Part shown: positions 17,946-27,037 of the stretch, one piece after another
Numbering within the stretch: the first letter of the stretch is position 1
Layout: each line of letters starts with the position of its first letter
Source of the DNA: Cytophagales bacterium
Lineage (GTDB): Bacteria > Bacteroidota > Bacteroidia > Cytophagales > Cyclobacteriaceae
Assembly (NCBI GenBank): GCA_017303805.1
Contig: JAFLBQ010000007.1
Location: 62,001 to 126,000, forward strand
DNA: 64,000 bases
Direction: 5' to 3'
Position numbers and translations under genes: made by a program
The notes under the pieces: model-generated
What the model was told of the DNA's origin: nothing
Database searches by the model: none
The model's input: only the letters and a program-made list of their open reading frames with translations

Positions 17946-18182
17946 TCAAACCAATCCCGAAAGGTAAAGGTTAAACTCCATCGGGCTAACCTCAGCAAAG
18001 CCATCGGCCTTCAGGTCGTCAAAGATTTCTGTATCAAAATCAAGTTCGCGGGTTTCAATTCCCCGGCTGCTTATCCAAAGTTCTAACCCTTTCAGTTGCA
18101 ACGGATTTACTTTTACCAATAATTTTCCATCGGGTAGCTCTTTTTTAAAGTATTGATGTACGATATTGTTTTCTTTCGGCAT
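17946..18182 (-). CDS. Small conserved-type hypothetical protein
   Basis: A 78-residue acidic protein (starts MPKENNIVHQYFKKELPDGK, ends NLYLSGLV) with no signal peptide or membrane segment. Codon use matches its neighbours and the frame starts with a good ATG, divergent from the acetyltransferase. I do not recognise a family; the predicted mix of beta strands and a C-terminal helix suggests a small cytosolic protein. It lies upstream of the SRP RNA gene in the same orientation. Confidence 0.65.
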   Translation of the reverse strand: MPKENNIVHQYFKKELPDGKLLVKVNPLQLKGLELWISSRGIETRELDFDTEIFDDLKADGFAEVSPMEFNLYLSGLV

Positions 18183-18195
18183 AATGCTAAAGGTA

Positions 18196-18786
18196 ATGGA
18201 TATTCCGGAACGGATTGAAACGAAAAGGTTGGTACTGCTGCGCCTGCAACTTACCGATGCCGAGGAGATGTTTTACACCTATTCGAGTAAACCTGCCAGT
18301 ACCCGGTTTGTGGTGTGGCCTATGCACCAATCTGTACACGATGCGCGTGCCTACCTTGCCCGCACCAGGGTAGGCTGGGATCAAGGCATTGATTTCTCCT
18401 TTTCCATCCGGCTAAAAGATACAAACAGGCTGCTGGGCGCATGTGGTTTCTTAATCGACAATGGCAACGCACAGATTGGCTACGTGCTGGGGCCGGTGCA
18501 TTGGCTGCAGGGCTATGCAACAGAAGCCTGCAACGCGCTGGTGGCATTATTGAAAGTGCAACCGTGGGTAAAATCCATTACCTCTTTTGTAGATGCAGAA
18601 AATGCTGCTTCGGTGCGGGTTCTGCAAAAGTGCGGCTTTGCAGTTGCTACCCTGGTAAAGGATTTTTATCGGTTCCCCAACCAGCAAAATAGGTGTAAAG
18701 ACTGCTGGGTGTTTTGTTATGCTGAGGCTACGGAAGGTTCCAGTTCGCGCAACGAAATTGACTCGCTGAAAGCTGCTTCGAGGTAA
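18196..18786 (+). CDS. GNAT-family N-acetyltransferase
   Basis: The product (196 residues from this ATG) starts MDIPERIETKRLVLLRLQ, the usual opening of RimJ/RimL-type acetyltransferases, with a FSIRLKDTNRLLGACGFLIDNGNAQIGYVLGP core and the acetyl-CoA loop region QGYATEACNALVALL followed by SFVDAENAASVRVLQKCGF. The substrate is unknown. An ATG at 18184 is possible; a TTG at 18166 would overlap the divergent gene. The last ~70 bp overlap the convergent gene's 3' end. Confidence 0.85.
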   Translation: MDIPERIETKRLVLLRLQLTDAEEMFYTYSSKPASTRFVVWPMHQSVHDARAYLARTRVGWDQGIDFSFSIRLKDTNRLLGACGFLIDNGNAQIGYVLGPVHWLQGYATEACNALVALLKVQPWVKSITSFVDAENAASVRVLQKCGFAVATLVKDFYRFPNQQNRCKDCWVFCYAEATEGSSSRNEIDSLKAASR

Positions 18787-19175
18787 CTGGCCCAGGTATT
18801 CAGGTAAAGAATTACATCTTGTTTTACATTGTGCTTCAGATTTTTGCGGTTGCCCGGAAGGAAGGCTAGTATCTTACTATCGGCCAATCGCTCAAGGTCG
18901 ATTAGATTTTGCCGGCTGAAGCCCGCGTGTAAAAGTTCTGTGATCAGGTCATCCATGGGCATGCCGCTGGTAGGGCAGTAGTCGTTCAATTGTTCCGACC
19001 AATCGCCCGGCTTAGCCATTGCGTGCCTATGGATTTCGGATTTGGTTAGGCGCGTAACCTCTTGTGCCAGAAATCCACAATTGCAGAGGCCCATGTGGCC
19101 CCACTGATAGTCGGTGCTGGTGTGTAATTTTCGGGCTGCATTGCGCAGCGCTTCAATCATAACAGCAGTTGCCAT
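18717..19175 (-). CDS. Conserved hypothetical protein
   Basis: The 152-residue product starts MATAVMIEALRNAARKL and contains a distinctive YQWGHMGLCNCGFLAQEVT segment (two cysteines around an Asn) and a PTSGMPMDDLITELLHAGF segment. It has no signal peptide or membrane span. Function is unknown. An upstream ATG at 19217 and a GTG at 19238 are in frame, but a TATATTTA promoter-like box at 19197-19204 favours the shorter start. The C-terminus overlaps the acetyltransferase gene on the other strand. Confidence 0.75.
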   Translation of the reverse strand: MATAVMIEALRNAARKLHTSTDYQWGHMGLCNCGFLAQEVTRLTKSEIHRHAMAKPGDWSEQLNDYCPTSGMPMDDLITELLHAGFSRQNLIDLERLADSKILAFLPGNRKNLKHNVKQDVILYLNTWASYLEAAFSESISLRELEPSVASA

Positions 19176-19196
19176 ATAAGCGTTAGTTTTTGATAC

Positions 19197-19204
19197 TAAA
19201 TATA
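19197..19204 (-). promoter_or_regulatory. -7-like box (TATATTTA)
   Basis: One mismatch to TAnnTTTG on the minus strand, ~22 nt before the ATG chosen for the gene at 18717-19175. Confidence 0.35.
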
Positions 19205-19268
19205 ACCCGGTATTCATTAAATTGTTGAGGGCGGGCACTCGTATTTTTTGAGATGCGCATTAAAAAAT

Positions 19269-19299
19269 TTTGTCGGTTACTGAACCTTTACTATACTTG
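19269..19299 (+). promoter_or_regulatory. Promoter of the THX-trp transcription unit
   Basis: TTTG at 19269-19272, 19 bp spacer, TATACTTG at 19292-19299: a -33/-7 pair with one mismatch in the -7 box. It lies 22 bp before the THX start. No other convincing promoter is seen before trpE, so this one probably also serves the trp operon. Confidence 0.6.
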
Positions 19300-19321
19300 C
19301 CCCATAAATTTTTGAAATTAA

Positions 19322-19495
19322 ATGGGAAGAGGTGATAAAAAGTCGAGAAAAGGAAAGCGTACCACCGGTTCGTTTGGAGTTACACGCAACCGTGCCAAAA
19401 TAAAAGCCCGGTTAAAGCGGGCCGCTTCTAAAAAAGTAGTAGTGGCCAGCGCAGAAGCTAAGCCTAAAAAACCTACCCGCAAAAAAGCTGAATAA
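19322..19495 (+). CDS. 30S ribosomal protein THX family
   Basis: A 57-residue, strongly basic protein: MGRGDKKSRKGKRTTGSFG opens with the Thx signature (GRGDxKTxKGKxxxGSxG), followed by TRNRAKIKARLKRAASKK and an Ala/Lys-rich tail. Thx binds the head of the small ribosomal subunit in Thermus and is common in Bacteroidota. Its TAA stop directly abuts the ATG of the tryptophan leader peptide, and a promoter lies just upstream. The gene therefore sits at the head of the trp transcript, and the trp attenuator also acts as its terminator. Confidence 0.9.
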   Translation: MGRGDKKSRKGKRTTGSFGVTRNRAKIKARLKRAASKKVVVASAEAKPKKPTRKKAE

Positions 19496-19552
19496 ATGAT
19501 TAAGGTTGTACATACTGCATGGTGGTGGCACAAGTCGGAATCCGATTGGTGA
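19496..19552 (+). CDS. trpL: Tryptophan operon leader peptide
   Basis: The 18-residue reading frame MIKVVHTAWWWHKSESDW has three consecutive Trp codons (TGG TGG TGG, 19520-19528) and a fourth Trp as last residue, and ends at TGA 34 bp before a terminator hairpin that precedes trpE. This is the layout of a classical ribosome-mediated trp attenuator. The ATG touches the stop of the THX gene (TAAATG), so ribosomes may re-initiate here. Codons 3-5 also form segment 1 of the attenuator RNA. Confidence 0.88.
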   Translation: MIKVVHTAWWWHKSESDW

Positions 19553-19622
19553 GCAGCCTTGCTATGTAACAACATAAATATGCCGAAGGCCCGCTGTTCA
19601 CAGTGGGCCTTCTTATTTTTAA
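19502..19622 (+). promoter_or_regulatory. Trp transcription attenuator (segments 1-4)
   Basis: Four mutually exclusive segments can be drawn. Segment 1 (AAGGTTG, 19502-19508) pairs with segment 2 (CAGCCTT, 19554-19560), 7 pairs with one G-U. Segment 2 (19552-19562) pairs with segment 3 (19582-19595) in three blocks of 3, 5 and 2 pairs as the antiterminator. Segment 3 (19586-19596) pairs with segment 4 (19601-19611) as the terminator. A ribosome stalled at the Trp codons would mask segment 1 and free segment 2; one reaching the stop codon would cover segment 2 and let the terminator form. The logic is that of E. coli trp, here inferred from sequence. Confidence 0.8.
19586..19622 (+). terminator. 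Attenuator terminator hairpin
   Basis: 11-bp stem AAGGCCCGCTG/CAGTGGGCCTT with one G-U pair and a TTCA loop, followed by CTTATTTTTAA. It ends 11 bp before the trpE ATG. Confidence 0.88.
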
Positions 19623-19632
19623 TAACATTGAA

Positions 19633-21021
19633 ATGAAATTTAAAACGTTTACCCGTCAACTGCTTGCCGATACGATTACCCCGGTAAATATCTACCTGAA
19701 GGTTCGCGATGTGTTTGCAGCAAGCATTTTGCTGGAAAGCTCAGACTACCATGGCAACGAGAATAGTTTGTCTTTTATCTGCTGCGAACCGGTAGCCTCA
19801 TTTAAAGTAACAGCCGGAACGGCCGAGATTACCTTGCCAGGCTCTGAGCCCAAAGTTGTAAAACTTGAAAACGGCACGCTGGTTTCTGTGTTGGAAGAGT
19901 TTGCAAACACTTTTGAGGTAGAGCCGGCTCCCACGCGCTATCCGCATGCAGGCTTATTCGGTTACATGGCCTACAATGCTGTTTCCTATTTCGAAGATTT
20001 AACCTTGCAGCATGCACCTTCAGAAATTCCGGACATGATCTACTCCCTCTACCGCTATGTAATTGTGGTAGATCATTTTCATAACGAAATGACGTTGTTC
20101 GAACACCAGGCTTCATCCGCTACCGAAAGTACACTCGACAGGCTGCAACAGGTAATTGTAAATAACCGGGTAACCACTTTTCAGTTTGCCAGCACCGGTC
20201 AGGAACAATCAAACTATTCCGATGCCGCATTTCTCGAAATTATCAACAAGGGTAAACACCACTGTTACCGGGGCGATGTGTTTCAGATTGTGCTTTCGCG
20301 GAGATTTACCACAGGTTTCAGAGGCGATGAGTTTAATGTGTACCGGGCCCTGCGTTCAATAAATCCTTCGCCCTATCTTTTTTACTTTGACTTTGGGAAT
20401 TTCAAATTGTTCGGATCATCGCCCGAAGCCCAGATTCAGATTAAAAGCGGCAAGGCCCACATTTACCCGATTGCCGGTACCTTTAGAAGAACTGGTAACG
20501 ACCAGGAAGATGCACAATTGGCCGAGCGGCTGGCTGCTGACGAAAAAGAAACGGCCGAGCATATTATGTTGGTAGATCTTGCCCGTAACGATATGAGCCG
20601 CAATGCCGAAGCCGTGCACGTGGAGGTGTTTAAAGAAATTCAATACTATTCGCACGTCATTCACCTGGTGTCCAAGGTTACGGGTACAATCCGGCCCGAC
20701 TCCTCGGTGGTGCAAATGGCGGCCGATACGTTTCCGGCCGGTACGCTTTCGGGGGCACCCAAGCACATGGCTATGAAGCTCATCGATCAATTCGAAAATG
20801 TTAGCAGAAGCTTTTACGGTGGCGCCATTGGCTTTATCGGATTCGACCACTCGTTTAATCATGCCATTATGATTCGTACTTTCTTAAGCCAGAACAATCA
20901 GTTGATTTACCAGGCGGGTGCGGGGGTGGTTTCAAAATCAAATGCCGAAAGCGAGTTACAGGAAGTAAATAATAAGTTGGAAGCCTTGCGCAAGGCCGTA
21001 GTGTTGGCTGAAAAAATTTAA
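19633..21021 (+). CDS. trpE: Anthranilate synthase component I
   Basis: The 462-residue enzyme makes anthranilate from chorismate with TrpG. The N-terminal domain carries the LLESSDYHG segment that forms the tryptophan feedback site in TrpE. The chorismate-binding domain has GDVFQIVLSRRF, SPEAQIQIK, IAGTFRRTG, DLARNDMSR, FPAGTLSGAPKHMAM, YGGAIGF and AGAGVVSKSNAESE. The ATG at 19633 is chosen because the region before it is the attenuator; an in-frame GTG at 19603 lies in the terminator stem. It is the first structural gene of an unbroken trpEGDCFBA order. Confidence 0.96.
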   Translation: MKFKTFTRQLLADTITPVNIYLKVRDVFAASILLESSDYHGNENSLSFICCEPVASFKVTAGTAEITLPGSEPKVVKLENGTLVSVLEEFANTFEVEPAPTRYPHAGLFGYMAYNAVSYFEDLTLQHAPSEIPDMIYSLYRYVIVVDHFHNEMTLFEHQASSATESTLDRLQQVIVNNRVTTFQFASTGQEQSNYSDAAFLEIINKGKHHCYRGDVFQIVLSRRFTTGFRGDEFNVYRALRSINPSPYLFYFDFGNFKLFGSSPEAQIQIKSGKAHIYPIAGTFRRTGNDQEDAQLAERLAADEKETAEHIMLVDLARNDMSRNAEAVHVEVFKEIQYYSHVIHLVSKVTGTIRPDSSVVQMAADTFPAGTLSGAPKHMAMKLIDQFENVSRSFYGGAIGFIGFDHSFNHAIMIRTFLSQNNQLIYQAGAGVVSKSNAESELQEVNNKLEALRKAVVLAEKI

Positions 21022-21027
21022 TGCAGT

Positions 21028-21600
21028 ATGAAAATTCTTGTTCTTGATAATTACGATTCGTTTACGTACAACCTGGTGCACATGATCAGGCTGCTGGGGT
21101 ACTCGCCCGATGTGTTTCGGAATGACAAGCTAAGCCTGGAGGCTGTTGGAGCGTATGATAAAATTCTGCTTTCGCCCGGGCCGGGCATTCCCGATGAGGC
21201 CGGCATAATGAAAGCGGTAATAGCAACGTACGGATCAAGCAAAAGCATTTTGGGTATTTGTCTTGGCCACCAGGGTATTGCCGAAGTGTATGGCGCTTCG
21301 CTATTCAATCTTCCGCAGGTGCTGCACGGTGTAACTTCTGTCGCCACGGTAGAAGATAGCACCGAGTATCTTTTCAACGGCATTAATTCAGTATTTCAGG
21401 CAACGCATTATCATTCCTGGGCTGTGGTGCCACAATCCATCAACGGAGTATTGCGCGTAACGGCCCGCAACCAGCAAGGCCTTGTAATGGGACTACGCCA
21501 TGCAGAATATGATGTGCGCGGCTTACAGTTTCATCCCGAATCCATTATGACTCCGGAGGGACCGCGGATGATTGAGAATTGGTTAACACACACCCGATAA
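21028..21600 (+). CDS. trpG: Anthranilate synthase component II (glutamine amidotransferase)
   Basis: The 190-residue class I amidotransferase supplies ammonia to TrpE. The catalytic Cys lies in GICLGHQGI (~residue 80), and the His/Glu pair in LQFHPESIMTPEG near the C-terminus. The N-terminus MKILVLDNYDSFTYNLVHM is typical. It starts 6 bp after trpE. A folate-specific PabA role is possible in addition, but the operon position argues for tryptophan. Confidence 0.95.
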   Translation: MKILVLDNYDSFTYNLVHMIRLLGYSPDVFRNDKLSLEAVGAYDKILLSPGPGIPDEAGIMKAVIATYGSSKSILGICLGHQGIAEVYGASLFNLPQVLHGVTSVATVEDSTEYLFNGINSVFQATHYHSWAVVPQSINGVLRVTARNQQGLVMGLRHAEYDVRGLQFHPESIMTPEGPRMIENWLTHTR

Positions 21601-21611
21601 TCTTAAAAGGC

Positions 21612-22598
21612 ATGAAACAGATTTTAACGGAGTTGATTGAGCATAGAAGCCTGACCAAAGAAACCGCACACCGCGTGTTGGTAGATCTGGCGCAAGGCAA
21701 ATTTAATCTGAGCCAGATGGCCGCGTTTATGACGGTGTATATGATGCGCAGCATTACGGTAGATGAACTACAAGGCTTTCGCGATGCCATGCTTGAACTC
21801 TGTGTGCCCGCGCGGTTTGACGAGCCCGTGATGGATGTGTGTGGTACCGGAGGCGATGGTAAAAATACAATCAACCTTTCTACGCTTTCTTCATTTGTGG
21901 TAGCAGCCGCAGGCCAGCCGGTGGCAAAGCACGGCAACTATGGAGTATCTTCGGCATGCGGTTCTTCTAACTTGCTGGAATATTTTGGGTATAAGTTTAC
22001 CAACAACCTCGATGACCTGAAGCGCAGTATAGAGCGGGCAAATATTTGTTTTATGCATGCACCACTGTTTCACCCTGCTATGAAAAATGTAGCCCCCATA
22101 CGCAAAGAGCTTGGCGTAAAAACCTTTTTCAATATGCTGGGGCCAATGGTAAACCCCGCTTTTCCTACCCGCCAATTGGTGGGTGTGTTTAGCCTGGAGT
22201 TAGCCCGGCAGTATGGGTATTTATATCAGCAAAGCGGAAAAGATTTCTTAATCCTGCATTCGTTAGATGGTTACGATGAAGTGTCGCTTACAAGTGCATT
22301 TAAATATTTCTACAACGGGGGTGAGCGGTTGGCCAAACCCGCTGATCTGAATTTGCCTACGGTAAAATATGAAGAAATAAAAGGCGGAAGTACAGTTGAA
22401 GAATCGGCCCGGATTTTTATGAACGTGCTGGAAGGCAAGGCAACGCCAGCCCAACGAGCAGCGGTACTTGCCAACGCAGCCATGGCATTGTATTGTGCCG
22501 ATACCACCGGTGGTTTAGCGCTGGCTGTTGGGCGCGCGGCTGAAGCGCTCGACTCTGGAAAGGCGCTGCAATCCTTTCATAATTTAATGCATGCTTAA
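21612..22598 (+). CDS. trpD: Anthranilate phosphoribosyltransferase
   Basis: The 328-residue protein transfers phosphoribose from PRPP to anthranilate. The PRPP/Mg site CGTGGDGKNTINLST is at ~80, followed by KHGNYGVSSACGSSNLLEYFG, and FMHAPLFHPAMKNVAPIRKELGVKTFFNMLGPMVNP. ATG at 21612 is preferred to an in-frame GTG inside trpG because the family starts at this point. It lies 11 bp after trpG. Confidence 0.95.
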   Translation: MKQILTELIEHRSLTKETAHRVLVDLAQGKFNLSQMAAFMTVYMMRSITVDELQGFRDAMLELCVPARFDEPVMDVCGTGGDGKNTINLSTLSSFVVAAAGQPVAKHGNYGVSSACGSSNLLEYFGYKFTNNLDDLKRSIERANICFMHAPLFHPAMKNVAPIRKELGVKTFFNMLGPMVNPAFPTRQLVGVFSLELARQYGYLYQQSGKDFLILHSLDGYDEVSLTSAFKYFYNGGERLAKPADLNLPTVKYEEIKGGSTVEESARIFMNVLEGKATPAQRAAVLANAAMALYCADTTGGLALAVGRAAEALDSGKALQSFHNLMHA

Positions 22599-22599
22599 A

Positions 22600-23406
22600 A
22601 TGGATATCCTTACAGAAATTATTGCCACCAAACACAAAGAAGTAGCCGAGCGCAAAGCGCTTTATCCGGTTAAGCTATTAGAGAAGAGTATTTTTTTCGA
22701 AGGGCCAACGGTTTCATTAAAGAAGTATGTTACGCGCCCCGATAAGTCGGGAATTATTGCCGAGATAAAGCGTAAGTCGCCATCGCGGGGAATAATAAAT
22801 CGCCATGTTTCGGTGGAGCGCACTTCAATTGGGTACATGCAGGCCGGGGCTTCTGCCATCTCGGTGCTTACCGATTCCGACTATTTTGGTGGTAGCAACG
22901 AAGATTTGATTACGGCCCGGAAGTTTAACTTTTGCCCGATTCTGCGCAAGGATTTTACAGTGGACGAGTATCAACTTCTGGAAGCAAAGTCGATTGGTGC
23001 CGATGCAATTTTGCTGATTGCCGCTGCGCTTGAGCCGGCTCAATTAAAACAACTTGCAAAAGTTGCACATAGCTTAAACCTGGAAGTGCTGCTGGAAGTG
23101 CATTCGCGCGAAGAGTTGGAAGCTAACCTTGAGGCCGGGGCCGACTTGATTGGTGTAAACAATCGCAACCTTAAAACATTCAGTACCAACATCAACTTAT
23201 CTGCCGAGTTGGCTGCATTTATCCCAAAAGAGTTTGTAAAGGTATCGGAGAGTGGGATAGAAAAGGCAGCAGTAGTTCTTGAATTGAAGAAGCTGGGGTA
23301 CCAGGGTTTTCTAATGGGTCAGAATTTTATGCAACACAGCCGGCCGGAACAAGCATGCACCGAATTTATAAATGAATTGAAAAAGTTAGCACGCCATCCA
23401 TCGTGA
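22600..23406 (+). CDS. trpC: Indole-3-glycerol phosphate synthase
   Basis: The 268-residue TIM-barrel enzyme has MDILTEIIATKHKEVAERK, IIAEIKRKSPSRGII (catalytic Lys), ILRKDFTVDEYQL, LLEVHSREELEANLEAGADLIGVNNRNLKTF and KVSESGI. It closes the indole ring. An in-frame ATG at 22591 overlaps the trpD stop; the second ATG matches the usual family start. Either start implies coupling to trpD. Confidence 0.94.
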   Translation: MDILTEIIATKHKEVAERKALYPVKLLEKSIFFEGPTVSLKKYVTRPDKSGIIAEIKRKSPSRGIINRHVSVERTSIGYMQAGASAISVLTDSDYFGGSNEDLITARKFNFCPILRKDFTVDEYQLLEAKSIGADAILLIAAALEPAQLKQLAKVAHSLNLEVLLEVHSREELEANLEAGADLIGVNNRNLKTFSTNINLSAELAAFIPKEFVKVSESGIEKAAVVLELKKLGYQGFLMGQNFMQHSRPEQACTEFINELKKLARHPS

Positions 23407-24062
23407 AGAAACAATTTTCCATACAGGTAAAAATTTGTGGAATGCGCGAGCATGCCAACATGGAAGCAGTGGCAAGTGCCGGACCGGACTACCTGGGTTT
23501 TATTTTTTATCCGCACTCGCCACGGTACGTAGGCGATCATTTTAAAATGCCGCACGAATTACCGACTAACGTAAAGCGGGTGGGAGTGTTTGTAAATGAA
23601 CTTGCGGCTACGGTGGTAAGCCTGGTGTTACAACACAAGTTGGATGTGGTGCAATTGCATGGCGATGAACCACCATCTTATTTAGAACACTTGAAGGCCC
23701 GGGGAATTAAAATCATTAAAGTGTTTAGAGTGGATGCAGATTTTGACTTTGCTACTACCACGCCTTACGAAAGGTGGGCTGATTATTTTCTTTTTGATAC
23801 AAAAGGAAAACAGTATGGTGGCAATTCAATGAAATTTGATTGGGATTTATTAACCCGGTACGCAGGTTCAGTTCCCTTCTTCTTAAGTGGCGGGATTGGG
23901 CCCGCAGATGTAACAGCGCTTAAAAATTTTAAACACACCCAATGGCATGCTATTGATGTGAACAGCGGCGTGGAGTTAGAACCCGGACTAAAGGATTTGC
24001 AAAAAGTAAAGAGATTAATTCAGGACTTTAAAAAACTTAATTTAAAAGAGGAAGCCCTATGA
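23403..24062 (+). CDS. trpF: Phosphoribosylanthranilate isomerase
   Basis: The 219-residue protein carries [14 protein letters not shown] (catalytic Cys), [53 protein letters not shown] (catalytic Asp) and [11 protein letters not shown]. It starts with GTG overlapping the trpC stop (GTGA), and its stop overlaps the trpB start (ATGA), both signs of translational coupling. Confidence 0.94.
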
Positions 24063-25240
24063 AATACCAGGTAGATGAACGTGGCTATTATGGCAATTTT
24101 GGTGGTGCCTACATTCCGGAGATGCTGTATCCGAATGTAGAAGAATTGCGAAGTCAATACCTTCAGATAATTGCACAGCCGGAATTTCAAACCGAGTTTA
24201 ACGAATTACTTCGGGCCTACGTAGGCCGGCCAACCCCGCTGTACCACGCAACGCGGCTTTCTGAAAAATACAATGCAGCCATTTACCTGAAGCGCGAAGA
24301 CCTGTGCCATACCGGGGCTCATAAAATCAATAATACAATCGGGCAGATTATTCTGGCTAAGCGCTTGGGTAAGCAAAAGATTATTGCTGAAACCGGAGCC
24401 GGACAACACGGTGTAGCTACGGCAACCGTGTGTGCACTCATGGGTATGGAGTGTATTGTGTACATGGGTAAATTGGATATGGAACGGCAACGCCCCAATG
24501 TAGAGCGCATGCGTATTTTAGGTGCACAGGTAATTGCGGCAGTTTCCGGCAACATGACCTTAAAGGATGCTACCAACGAAGCCATGCGCCATTGGATAAA
24601 TCACCCCACCGATACGCATTATATTATCGGTTCGGTAGTGGGGCCGCATCCCTATCCGCACATGGTGGCGCTTTTTCAATCGGTTATAAGTGAAGAAATA
24701 AAAAAGCAATTGCAGCAAGCCATCGGGCAACCTAATCCAGATTATGTGATAGCGTGTGTGGGTGGTGGCAGCAATGCGGCTGGGGCGTTTTATCATTATC
24801 TGAACGAGGTACATGTAAACCTGGTAGGGGTGGAAGCAGCCGGCAAAGGAGTGGACAGTGGTGAATCGGCCGCAACCACTGCCCTTGGCAAACCCGGTGT
24901 TTTGCACGGCAGCAAGACGCTATTGATGCAAACTACCGATGGGCAGGTAATAGAGCCTTACTCTATTTCGGCTGGGTTAGACTACCCCGGTATCGGGCCG
25001 TTGCACTCGCACTTATTTGAAACCGGAAGAGTACAGTTTCTAAATGCCACCGATGAAGAAGCCATGCAGGCCGGTATTGAGTTGGCGCGTACCGAAGGAA
25101 TTATTCCGGCTATCGAGTCGGCACATGCGTTGGCAGCACTTTCAAAACTGGAGTTAACGGCAGAAGATGTAGTAGTAGTTAATCTAAGTGGCCGTGGGGA
25201 CAAAGACCTGGAAACCTACATACGGTGGGGAAAATATTGA
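24059..25240 (+). CDS. trpB: Tryptophan synthase beta chain
   Basis: The 393-residue PLP enzyme condenses indole with serine. PLP lysine is in [15 protein letters not shown] (~residue 87), followed by [20 protein letters not shown] and the phosphate-binding [28 protein letters not shown] at the N-terminus and [14 protein letters not shown] at the C-terminus are typical of the TrpB1 class that works with TrpA, encoded next. Confidence 0.96.
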
Positions 25241-25253
25241 ACAACGAATCCCA

Positions 25254-26033
25254 ATGAAAAACAGAATTACAGAATTGTTTCAACATGCGAAGAAGCCGGT
25301 GCTTTCAGTTTTTTATACTGCGGGGTTTCCTAACCTTAACGATACCGGAACAATTGCCACTGCACTGGAGGCAGCCGGTGCCGACCTGATAGAAATTGGA
25401 ATTCCATTTTCCGATCCGGTTGCAGACGGCCCCACCATACAGGCAAGTAATAAGCAGGCGTTGGATAATGGCATGACCGTAGAACTTTTGCTAAAGCAGG
25501 TTGCGGCCATCCGTAACCAGGTAACGCTGCCGATTATTCTTATGGGTTATGTTAACCCGGTTATGCAGTATGGCTTCGAACGATTTTTTACCGATGCAGC
25601 AAATGCCGGTGTGGATGGGTTAATTCTTCCTGACCTTCCGTTAGATGAATATGAAACGTATCGCGAACTTACTACCGCACTCAACCTGAGTATTTCATTT
25701 TTGATTTCGCCAACAACCAGCGAAGCAAGGATAAGAAAAATTGATGCCAGCAGCTCGGGGTTTATTTATGCCGTGTCGGCCTCCAGTACCACCGGTGCAA
25801 AAGCTGAATTCAGTGCGGAACAAAGTGAGTACTTCGCTAAACTAAAAGCCCTTGAGCTAAAGAATCCGTTTCTGATTGGGTTTGGGGTTTCTAATTACAA
25901 AACCTATACGCAGGTATGCGCCCATGCGGCTGGCGCCATTGTAGGCAGTTCGTTTGTTAAAATGCTCAGCCAAACCAAAGATTTCGATGCCGATATTAAA
26001 ACGTTTATAACCTCGCTAACTACACCCAAATGA
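25254..26033 (+). CDS. trpA: Tryptophan synthase alpha chain
   Basis: The 259-residue TIM barrel releases indole for TrpB. Seen: FYTAGFPNLNDTG, DLIEIGIPFSDPVADGPTIQASNKQAL (catalytic Glu/Asp region), ILMGYVNPVMQYGFERF, DGLILPDLPLDEY, FLISPTTS, GFIYAVSASSTTGAK and IVGSSFVKML. ATG at 25254 is 13 bp after trpB. Its stop overlaps the next start. Confidence 0.95.
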   Translation: MKNRITELFQHAKKPVLSVFYTAGFPNLNDTGTIATALEAAGADLIEIGIPFSDPVADGPTIQASNKQALDNGMTVELLLKQVAAIRNQVTLPIILMGYVNPVMQYGFERFFTDAANAGVDGLILPDLPLDEYETYRELTTALNLSISFLISPTTSEARIRKIDASSSGFIYAVSASSTTGAKAEFSAEQSEYFAKLKALELKNPFLIGFGVSNYKTYTQVCAHAAGAIVGSSFVKMLSQTKDFDADIKTFITSLTTPK

Positions 26034-27037
26034 TTATTGAACTACAACCCAATATTGGGCCTGAGATAAAGCGCGCAATTGTTGAAAAAGTTGCCGCTAT
26101 CGGTTATAAATCAATGGAAGTAAAAACCCAACGGAGTCACTACCTGGTGGCCATTGGTAAGAAAGATTTTGATATCCGAACGATTGGCCACATGCCGGGC
26201 ATTGCAGACCTGCACCGGGTTTCCGATGAGTACAAACTTGTATCACGCAAGTGGAAAGTGGCGCCCACTGTTTTGGACCTGGGCGATGGGGTAACTATTG
26301 GCGGTGGTGGGTTAGCTATTATGGCCGGCCCTTGTTCTATTGAGAGCGAAAAACAAATTGAACAAACATTAGAACACCTGGTTGCGAATAACGTGAAAAT
26401 TATGCGCGGAGGTGTGTTCAAACCCCGCAGTTCGCCTTATGCCTTTCGCGGACTGGGGATTGATGGCTTGAAGGTGTGGTACAATTTGGCGCGGGCCCGC
26501 GGAATAAAAATTATAAGTGAAGTAATGCAGGTAAGTCAAATTGAACCGATGCTTCCGTATGTGGACGTATTTCAGGTAGGCGCCCGCAATACTCAAAACT
26601 TTAATTTGCTTGACGAACTGGGCAAAGTGGATAAGCCGGTAATGATTAAACGCGGCATCTCCGGTACCATCGATGAGTTGTTATCATCGGCAGAGTACGT
26701 GTTTTCGGCTGGCAACGAAAAACTTATTTTATGCGAGCGTGGTATCCGTACGTATGAAAGAGCCAGCCGCAATACGATGGATATTAATGCGATCCCGATT
26801 TTGAAAGCAAAAAGTCATTTGCCGGTTGTAGCCGATCCTTCGCACGGTATCGGCATTCGGGAGTTTGTGCCTCCGGTTGCCCTCGCGGCTGCAGTGGCAG
26901 GTGCCGATGGAATTATCTACGAAACGCATCAAAAACCAGAAGAAGCTTTTAGCGATGGCCAACAAACTTTAGACTTTGCCGAATCGAGCCGGTTGATCAA
27001 TCAACTGAATGAAGTGATAAAGTTTATTCAGAACTAA
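26030..27037 (+). CDS. aroF: 3-deoxy-7-phosphoheptulonate synthase (DAHP synthase, AroA-beta/Thermotoga type)
   Basis: The 335-residue protein has a ~70-residue N-terminal ferredoxin-like domain (starting MIIELQPNIGPEIKRAIV) as in Thermotoga-type feedback-regulated enzymes, and a catalytic barrel with IMAGPCSIESEKQI, KIMRGGVFKPRSSPYAFRGLG, QVGARNTQNFNLL, MIKRGISGT, CERGIRTYE and VVADPSHGIG. It makes the first intermediate of aromatic biosynthesis. The start overlaps the trpA stop (ATGA), so this is the last gene of the trp unit and the attenuator would tune aromatic entry as well. No chorismate mutase domain is present. The gene symbol is approximate. Confidence 0.92.
   Translation: MIIELQPNIGPEIKRAIVEKVAAIGYKSMEVKTQRSHYLVAIGKKDFDIRTIGHMPGIADLHRVSDEYKLVSRKWKVAPTVLDLGDGVTIGGGGLAIMAGPCSIESEKQIEQTLEHLVANNVKIMRGGVFKPRSSPYAFRGLGIDGLKVWYNLARARGIKIISEVMQVSQIEPMLPYVDVFQVGARNTQNFNLLDELGKVDKPVMIKRGISGTIDELLSSAEYVFSAGNEKLILCERGIRTYERASRNTMDINAIPILKAKSHLPVVADPSHGIGIREFVPPVALAAAVAGADGIIYETHQKPEEAFSDGQQTLDFAESSRLINQLNEVIKFIQN

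Follow-up and report, generated by a model that had tools for sequence, protein, structure and literature searches.

In the window (the whole stretch of DNA that was analysed, 64,000 nucleotides), a short gene for ribosomal protein THX is followed on the same strand by a Trp-rich leader frame, a terminator and a run of tryptophan biosynthesis genes that abut or overlap each other (Table 1). The THX protein scores 37.8 bits against NCBIfam TIGR04560, above the cut-off of 26 for membership in that family, and 21.2 bits against Pfam RPS31, under the cut-off of 32.5. A preliminary description read the biosynthetic genes as trpEGDCFBA-aroF. This holds for trpG (matched by a trpG/papA model), trpD, trpC, trpB, trpA and the DAHP synthase (its aroF), all above model cut-offs, and for a trpE-like first gene, which matches Pfam Anth_synt_I_N and Chorismate_bind above cut-off and has trpE_most as its best NCBIfam match (407.5 bits, under the cut-off of 517.7). 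It does not hold to the same degree for trpF, which is assigned from best matches only, all under cut-off. A 173-aa frame on the opposite strand (18717-19238), divergent from THX, has no Pfam match at an E-value of 0.001.

Table 1. Positions in the window of the THX gene, the trp leader and the trp genes.
Feature	Positions	Strand	Basis or detail
Promoter of the shared transcript (predicted)	19268-19299	+	TTTTG 19268-19272 (TTG 19270-19272), 19-nt spacer, TATACTTG 19292-19299
THX gene, 57 aa + stop	19322-19495	+	TIGR04560 (ribo_THX); stop TAA 19493-19495
Leader ORF MIKVVHTAWWWHKSESDW*, 18 codons	19496-19552	+	ATG abuts the THX stop (zero gap); stop TGA 19550-19552
1:2 (protector) hairpin, Trp codons inside	19505-19573	+	Predicted minimum-free-energy structure
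Segment 2 core, 5' strand of the antiterminator	19549-19557	+	GUGAGCAGC, includes the leader stop UGA; best duplex with 19593-19601
Segment 3 core, 3' strand of the antiterminator and upper 5' arm plus loop of the terminator	19593-19601	+	GCUGUUCAC; best duplex, permutation test
3:4 intrinsic terminator	19585-19620	+	Stem 19585-19612, then TTATTTTT
trpE, first regulated gene	19633-21021	+	Frame, Pfam, best NCBIfam match
trpG, trpD, trpC, trpF, trpB, trpA, DAHP synthase	21028-27037	+	Genes abut or overlap

The 18-codon leader frame with TGG TGG TGG, reported earlier to precede a terminator and trpE, is there as described. A frame of the form ATG...TGGTGGTGG occurred in none of 4100 shuffled upstream regions. 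The terminator-like stem, which begins 32 nt 3' of the leader stop, has 12 pairs, 8 of them G-C, and a TTATTTTTAA tail. The terminator scan is by itself no evidence, since it gave 3 terminator-like sites between 18000 and 20500 against a mean of 3.3 in shuffled sequences. The predicted fold of the leader RNA has an energy of -51.1 kcal/mol (z -5.9), and 0 of 200 shuffles were as stable.

Conservation of the leader and of its linkage to THX

We looked for relatives lacking the Trp codons and the terminator, a case that the preliminary description had raised against its own reading, and found none among the readable loci of the genus. The same-genus sample comprised 36 genomes, including that of the window, of which 31 had a TrpE match and 29 a readable upstream region (G010 and G021 were left out for a contig edge and a partial gene). 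In each of the 29, trpE is preceded by a terminator and by a leader in which two or more Trp codons follow one another. THX lies directly 5' of the leader in 28 of them; it is intact in 26 and interrupted in two, by a run of N in G031 and by frame changes, perhaps sequencing errors, in G023. It is absent from one, G018 (L021), where a lysine/alanine-rich frame ends before the leader instead, and where a TATTATTG box is visible by eye just 5' of the leader. G010 and G024, viewed separately, have THX, leader and terminator. In G024 (L044, reverse strand), where these three are intact, the trpE frame stops after its N-terminal part and is followed by a trpA-like frame, which would reflect either a deletion of most of the trp operon or a misassembly.

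The total sample holds 205 loci: 45 from the genus and the order, 80 from named Bacteroidota and 80 from the family (148 genomes searched, with upstream regions taken from 80, representing 75 genera), with slight overlap among the samples. A Trp-run leader and a terminator precede trpE in 187 of the 205 sampled Bacteroidota loci, namely in 29/29 from the genus, 9/16 from other families of the order, 75/80 named and 74/80 from the family. The leader rule is strict, and the 18 uncounted loci include G099, with an apparent non-ATG start, and G133, with W-H-W. With such counts, and with an Rfam family for leaders of this kind (RF01692), the earlier opinion that a Bacteroidota case is unusual has to be given up.

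The linkage to THX is much narrower. Identifying THX in relatives by an N-terminal motif rather than a profile, we found it in 2 of the 80 named loci, which are two of the three whose TrpE matches best, and in none of the 16 loci that represent other families of the order. The THX-coupled arrangement occurs in eight sampled genera of one family and is therefore not limited to the window genome; in this sample it is confined to that family, probably Cyclobacteriaceae, the name we assume for the group. The THX-coupled clade, as used below, is a set of 43 loci picked by hand in which G018 was retained despite lacking THX. Their leaders have WWW in 41/43 and WWWH in 39/43 cases. The preliminary description spoke of an attenuator fused to a ribosomal-protein unit: what we find is a conserved arrangement that would give one transcript, not a fused gene.

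A terminator 3' of a short ribosomal-protein gene would be unremarkable, and the hairpin might simply end the THX transcript, with the Trp-rich frame incidental to it. We consider this very improbable, because leader and terminator stand before trpE also where THX is missing, as in nearly all of the named loci with a leader, and because segments 2 and 3 correspond within a locus.

Alternative pairing in the leader RNA

The alternative pairings proposed for the window withstood comparison of loci, with changed coordinates: the 1:2 hairpin is longer than first stated, and the best 2:3 duplex is the one given in Table 1, to which a short second helix is added. For the energy tests five duplicate loci were dropped, leaving 182 distinct loci and a dereplicated set of 97. 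Among these 97, the 2:3 duplex has an energy of -15.12 kcal/mol when each segment 2 is paired with its own strand 3 and of -10.40 (sd 0.27) when strand 3 is permuted among loci (z -17); the lowest of 5000 permutations gave -11.42. The own strand 3 is among the best 5% in 38/97 loci, with a median rank of 8.

The 43 loci of the THX-coupled clade fall into two motif types, each self-consistent. In type A (19 loci), segment 2 has GUGARCAG, which pairs with CUGUUCAC of the terminator. In type B (24 loci), the pair is mostly GAUCGG with CCGAUC, with variants such as AAUCGG with CCGAUU and UCGGGG with CCCCGA. Over the clade the own duplexes come to -17.4, against -9.4 for segment 2 of type A with strand 3 of type B and -12.3 for the reverse combination. 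In type B, none of 5000 permutations came as low as the own pairs. In type A, own pairs have no advantage over swapped ones (0.69 of permutations were as low), since a single, scarcely varying motif is common to all members. The association extends to other loci: GARCA occurs in segment 2 of 35/56 loci with a TGTTC terminator versus 22/126 without, and outside the clade in 17/35 versus 22/104 (p 0.004). Where the motif is TGARCA, its TGA serves as the stop of the leader in 27 of 34 cases, so that in this type a ribosome terminating there would occupy the antiterminator strand. The leader frame of type B loci usually continues through segment 2. The consensus fold of type A shows part of the 1:2 hairpin; the RNAalifold consensus of the type B alignment is weak (-13.8 kcal/mol) and lacks part of the terminator, as the aligned sequences are not all in the same register.

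Two other tests were uninformative. At least five 2:3 pairs in a truncated fold were found in 182/182 real loci but also in 830/910 with swapped strand 3. When the full-length leader was folded with a mask in place of the stalled ribosome, the complete RNA still formed the terminator. With the terminator favoured even under the mask, the switch has to be kinetic, with antitermination taking place during transcription as in the classical model of trp attenuation.

Three sequence features of a ribosome-mediated trp attenuator are thus found at this locus: a predicted and conserved tandem-Trp frame before trp genes, a conserved intrinsic terminator between leader and first gene, and a 2:3 pairing that excludes 3:4, as judged by permutations over the 97 dereplicated and the 43 clade loci (type A alone is not significant). 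From its sequence, the trp attenuator of the window is real, and the original observation is confirmed.

Promoters and the entry of ribosomes into the leader

Promoters were scored against a single Bacteroidota-type consensus (TTG, 17-22 nt, TAnnTTTG), and sites with at least 10 of 11 points within 110 nt were counted as qualifying. The claim that a promoter lies before THX and that none before the leader is convincing agrees well with the 40 THX-coupled loci scored. A qualifying site lies at most 110 nt 5' of THX in 38/40 (about 10% of shuffles), and the listed site is 25-34 nt before the THX ATG in 37/40; in the scan of the window, an equally scoring site farther upstream comes first. By contrast, a qualifying site lies within 110 nt 5' of the leader, inside THX, in 1/40 loci, a figure weaker than it appears because the composition of the 3' part of THX rarely gives promoter-like sites (0.1% of shuffles). 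Among leaders without THX, 88/130 have a qualifying promoter just upstream (12% of shuffles). There is also a group of twelve genomes from eleven genera in which THX lies farther upstream, 39-208 nt from the leader nearest to trpE where measured; 7 of the 10 genomes tested have a qualifying promoter in the gap, before the first leader.

One could therefore imagine, as these self-promoted leaders and loosely linked cousins invite, that a promoter in or near THX drives the trp leader in the window as well, and that THX and trp are largely separate units. We regard this as improbable, given the single qualifying site before the leader among the 40 coupled loci, with the caveat that a single consensus was scored. 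Rather, it looks as if the leader of the THX-coupled group once had a promoter and lost it. In the simplest history suggested by these sequences, THX first took up a place upstream of a self-promoted trp leader, after which the gap closed and the promoter was lost in the group of eight sampled genera. The loci would form a natural series, from a self-promoted leader without THX, through loci where THX lies upstream and the gap holds a promoter, to a closed gap with the promoter lost and a start at the THX stop codon, and the series shows a route by which a ribosomal-protein transcript can acquire an attenuator.

Outside the THX-coupled clade (e.g., L082, L131, L166), a good promoter site is present in 102 loci, and in 59 of these its -7 box (TAnnTTTG) starts 10-19 nt 5' of the leader ATG. 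This spacing suggests that leader transcripts there are probably leaderless or nearly so.

The distance from the THX stop to the leader ATG ranges from -4 to +18 nt, with a median of 3. Only 3 of the 43 clade loci have a Shine-Dalgarno-like sequence 5' of the leader. In THX-coupled and other leaders alike, a ribosome would thus reach the leader without such a sequence. As the leader ATG stands at the THX stop without promoter or Shine-Dalgarno sequence, the ribosomes that translate the leader have probably come straight from the end of THX. The small gap fits reinitiation by these ribosomes, though it is no proof, since the region is also A-rich (0.53 versus 0.36 elsewhere). We give an even chance to the full version of this idea, a translationally coupled attenuator in which Trp is sensed by THX ribosomes that start again at the leader ATG. 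Nearly as plausible, if somewhat short of even, is the same attenuator with ribosomes that initiate on the leader's own ATG, the proximity of the THX stop being mere compaction. Bacteroidota ribosomes favour A-rich sequence upstream of the start, so the A-rich stretch could allow independent initiation, but this composition results from the lysine-rich C-terminus of THX. Similarly, gaps of 8 to 18 nt in 6 of the 40 loci are in keeping with independent initiation, whereas the gaps of -4 to +6 nt in the other 34, several of them overlaps of the ATGA or TAATG kind, speak for coupling.

Our overall model, which we consider very likely, is that of a transcript from the THX promoter carrying a ribosome-mediated trp attenuator, with the leader probably entered by THX ribosomes. 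The gene order, the leader, the conserved promoter and the alternative pairings are observed in the genomes; from them we infer the structure of the transcript, the response to Trp and reinitiation. A single promoter 5' of THX would give an RNA with THX, the leader ORF, the terminator/antiterminator region and trpEGDCFBA-DAHP synthase in this order. With ample Trp-tRNA, the ribosome would clear the WWW codons and get to the leader stop within segment 2; with segment 2 masked, 3:4 would form and transcription would stop, leaving a THX-only mRNA. With scarce Trp-tRNA, the ribosome would stall at WWW and open 1:2, segment 2 would bind segment 3 before segment 4 exists, and the polymerase would enter trpE. 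THX would be made in both states, and the terminator of the attenuator would double as the 3' end of THX. If reinitiation by THX ribosomes is true, a ribosome already trails the polymerase when the switch is decided, and Trp synthesis is set by ribosomal-protein expression multiplied by the shortage of Trp-tRNA. In bacteria that do without Shine-Dalgarno sequences, the arrangement makes it testable whether a ribosome from the upstream gene can stand in for independent initiation in the timing of attenuation.

Relation to known attenuators

Against Rfam RF01692 (Bacteroid-trp) the window scores 26.4 bits, under the gathering cut-off of 49, and against RF00513 (Trp_leader) 24.2 bits, under the cut-off of 41, in an alignment that spans the whole model. 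The RF01692 cut-off was exceeded in 4/20 loci scanned and in 1/58 relatives searched; the THX-coupled relative L189 scores 38.4 bits and G050, of the same order and without THX, 65.5 bits. The model of RF01692 thus misses the present branch of Bacteroid-trp leaders. In kind, the window sequence belongs with E. coli trpL and Bacteroid-trp among the trp attenuators; by score it is outside both families. A different sensor of read-through (T-box, TRAP or riboswitch) is extremely improbable, the least probable of the readings weighed here: in the Rfam search of 18000-21000, an E-value of 1 was reached only by Trp_leader and by an unrelated microRNA model. Vitreschak et al. reportedly found in 2004 that attenuators occur also in Bacteroidetes/Chlorobi.

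The members of RF01692 share with the window a leader ORF with Trp codons and alternative structures before Bacteroidota trp genes; in the window, THX and its promoter stand 5' of this leader. The E. coli trp leader has the same order of elements, from tandem Trp codons through protector and antiterminator to the terminator, whereas the window leader lies behind a ribosomal-protein gene and has no Shine-Dalgarno sequence. E. coli rplT-pheM-pheST, genes that are co-transcribed in the same direction, resembles the window in that an amino-acid attenuator leader adjoins a ribosomal-protein gene, and differs in that it controls tRNA synthetase genes and senses Phe. An excerpt of PMC5371410 lists a pheM-rplT intergenic site and places pheM under attenuation. 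The leaderless trpL of Sinorhizobium meliloti (PMC7298713) is likewise a Trp attenuator whose leader ORF starts without a ribosome-binding site, but its transcript begins at the leader ATG, whereas in the window THX intervenes; the sampled leaders without THX look nearer to trpL than the window leader does. RF01692, the "Bacteroidete tryptophan peptide leader RNA", goes back to Weinberg et al. 2010 (PMC2864571, in excerpt), and an excerpt of PMC6414381 discusses the Bacteroid-trp leader for F. psychrophilum. The open-licence literature that we searched contained no paper that links THX with trp or describes a THX-coupled attenuator, and no account of a promoter-less leader starting at a ribosomal-protein stop codon. 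As far as searched, the THX-coupled arrangement and the leader start by reinitiation that it implies are new.

Tandem trp attenuators, with two Trp-run leader ORFs each followed by a terminator before trpE, were seen in 9 of the 205 loci: L081, L141 and L146, and, in the family sample, L169 (G068), L179 (G080), L192 (G163), L208 (G112), L224 (G132) and L229 (G137). The first tandem leader of L141 and L146 is IWLPWWGL. By eye, G094 (L193) also appears tandem attenuator-like. Finally, in L099 (Xanthocytophaga flavus, 2707-2974), a tRNA-Trp gene with anticodon CCA (2867-2940) lies between the trp attenuator and trpE, the only tRNA-Trp 5' of trpE among the 205 loci. As it sits 3' of the attenuator, it would be read mainly under Trp starvation. 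The same genome has a second tRNA-Trp gene elsewhere, 74% identical to the first.
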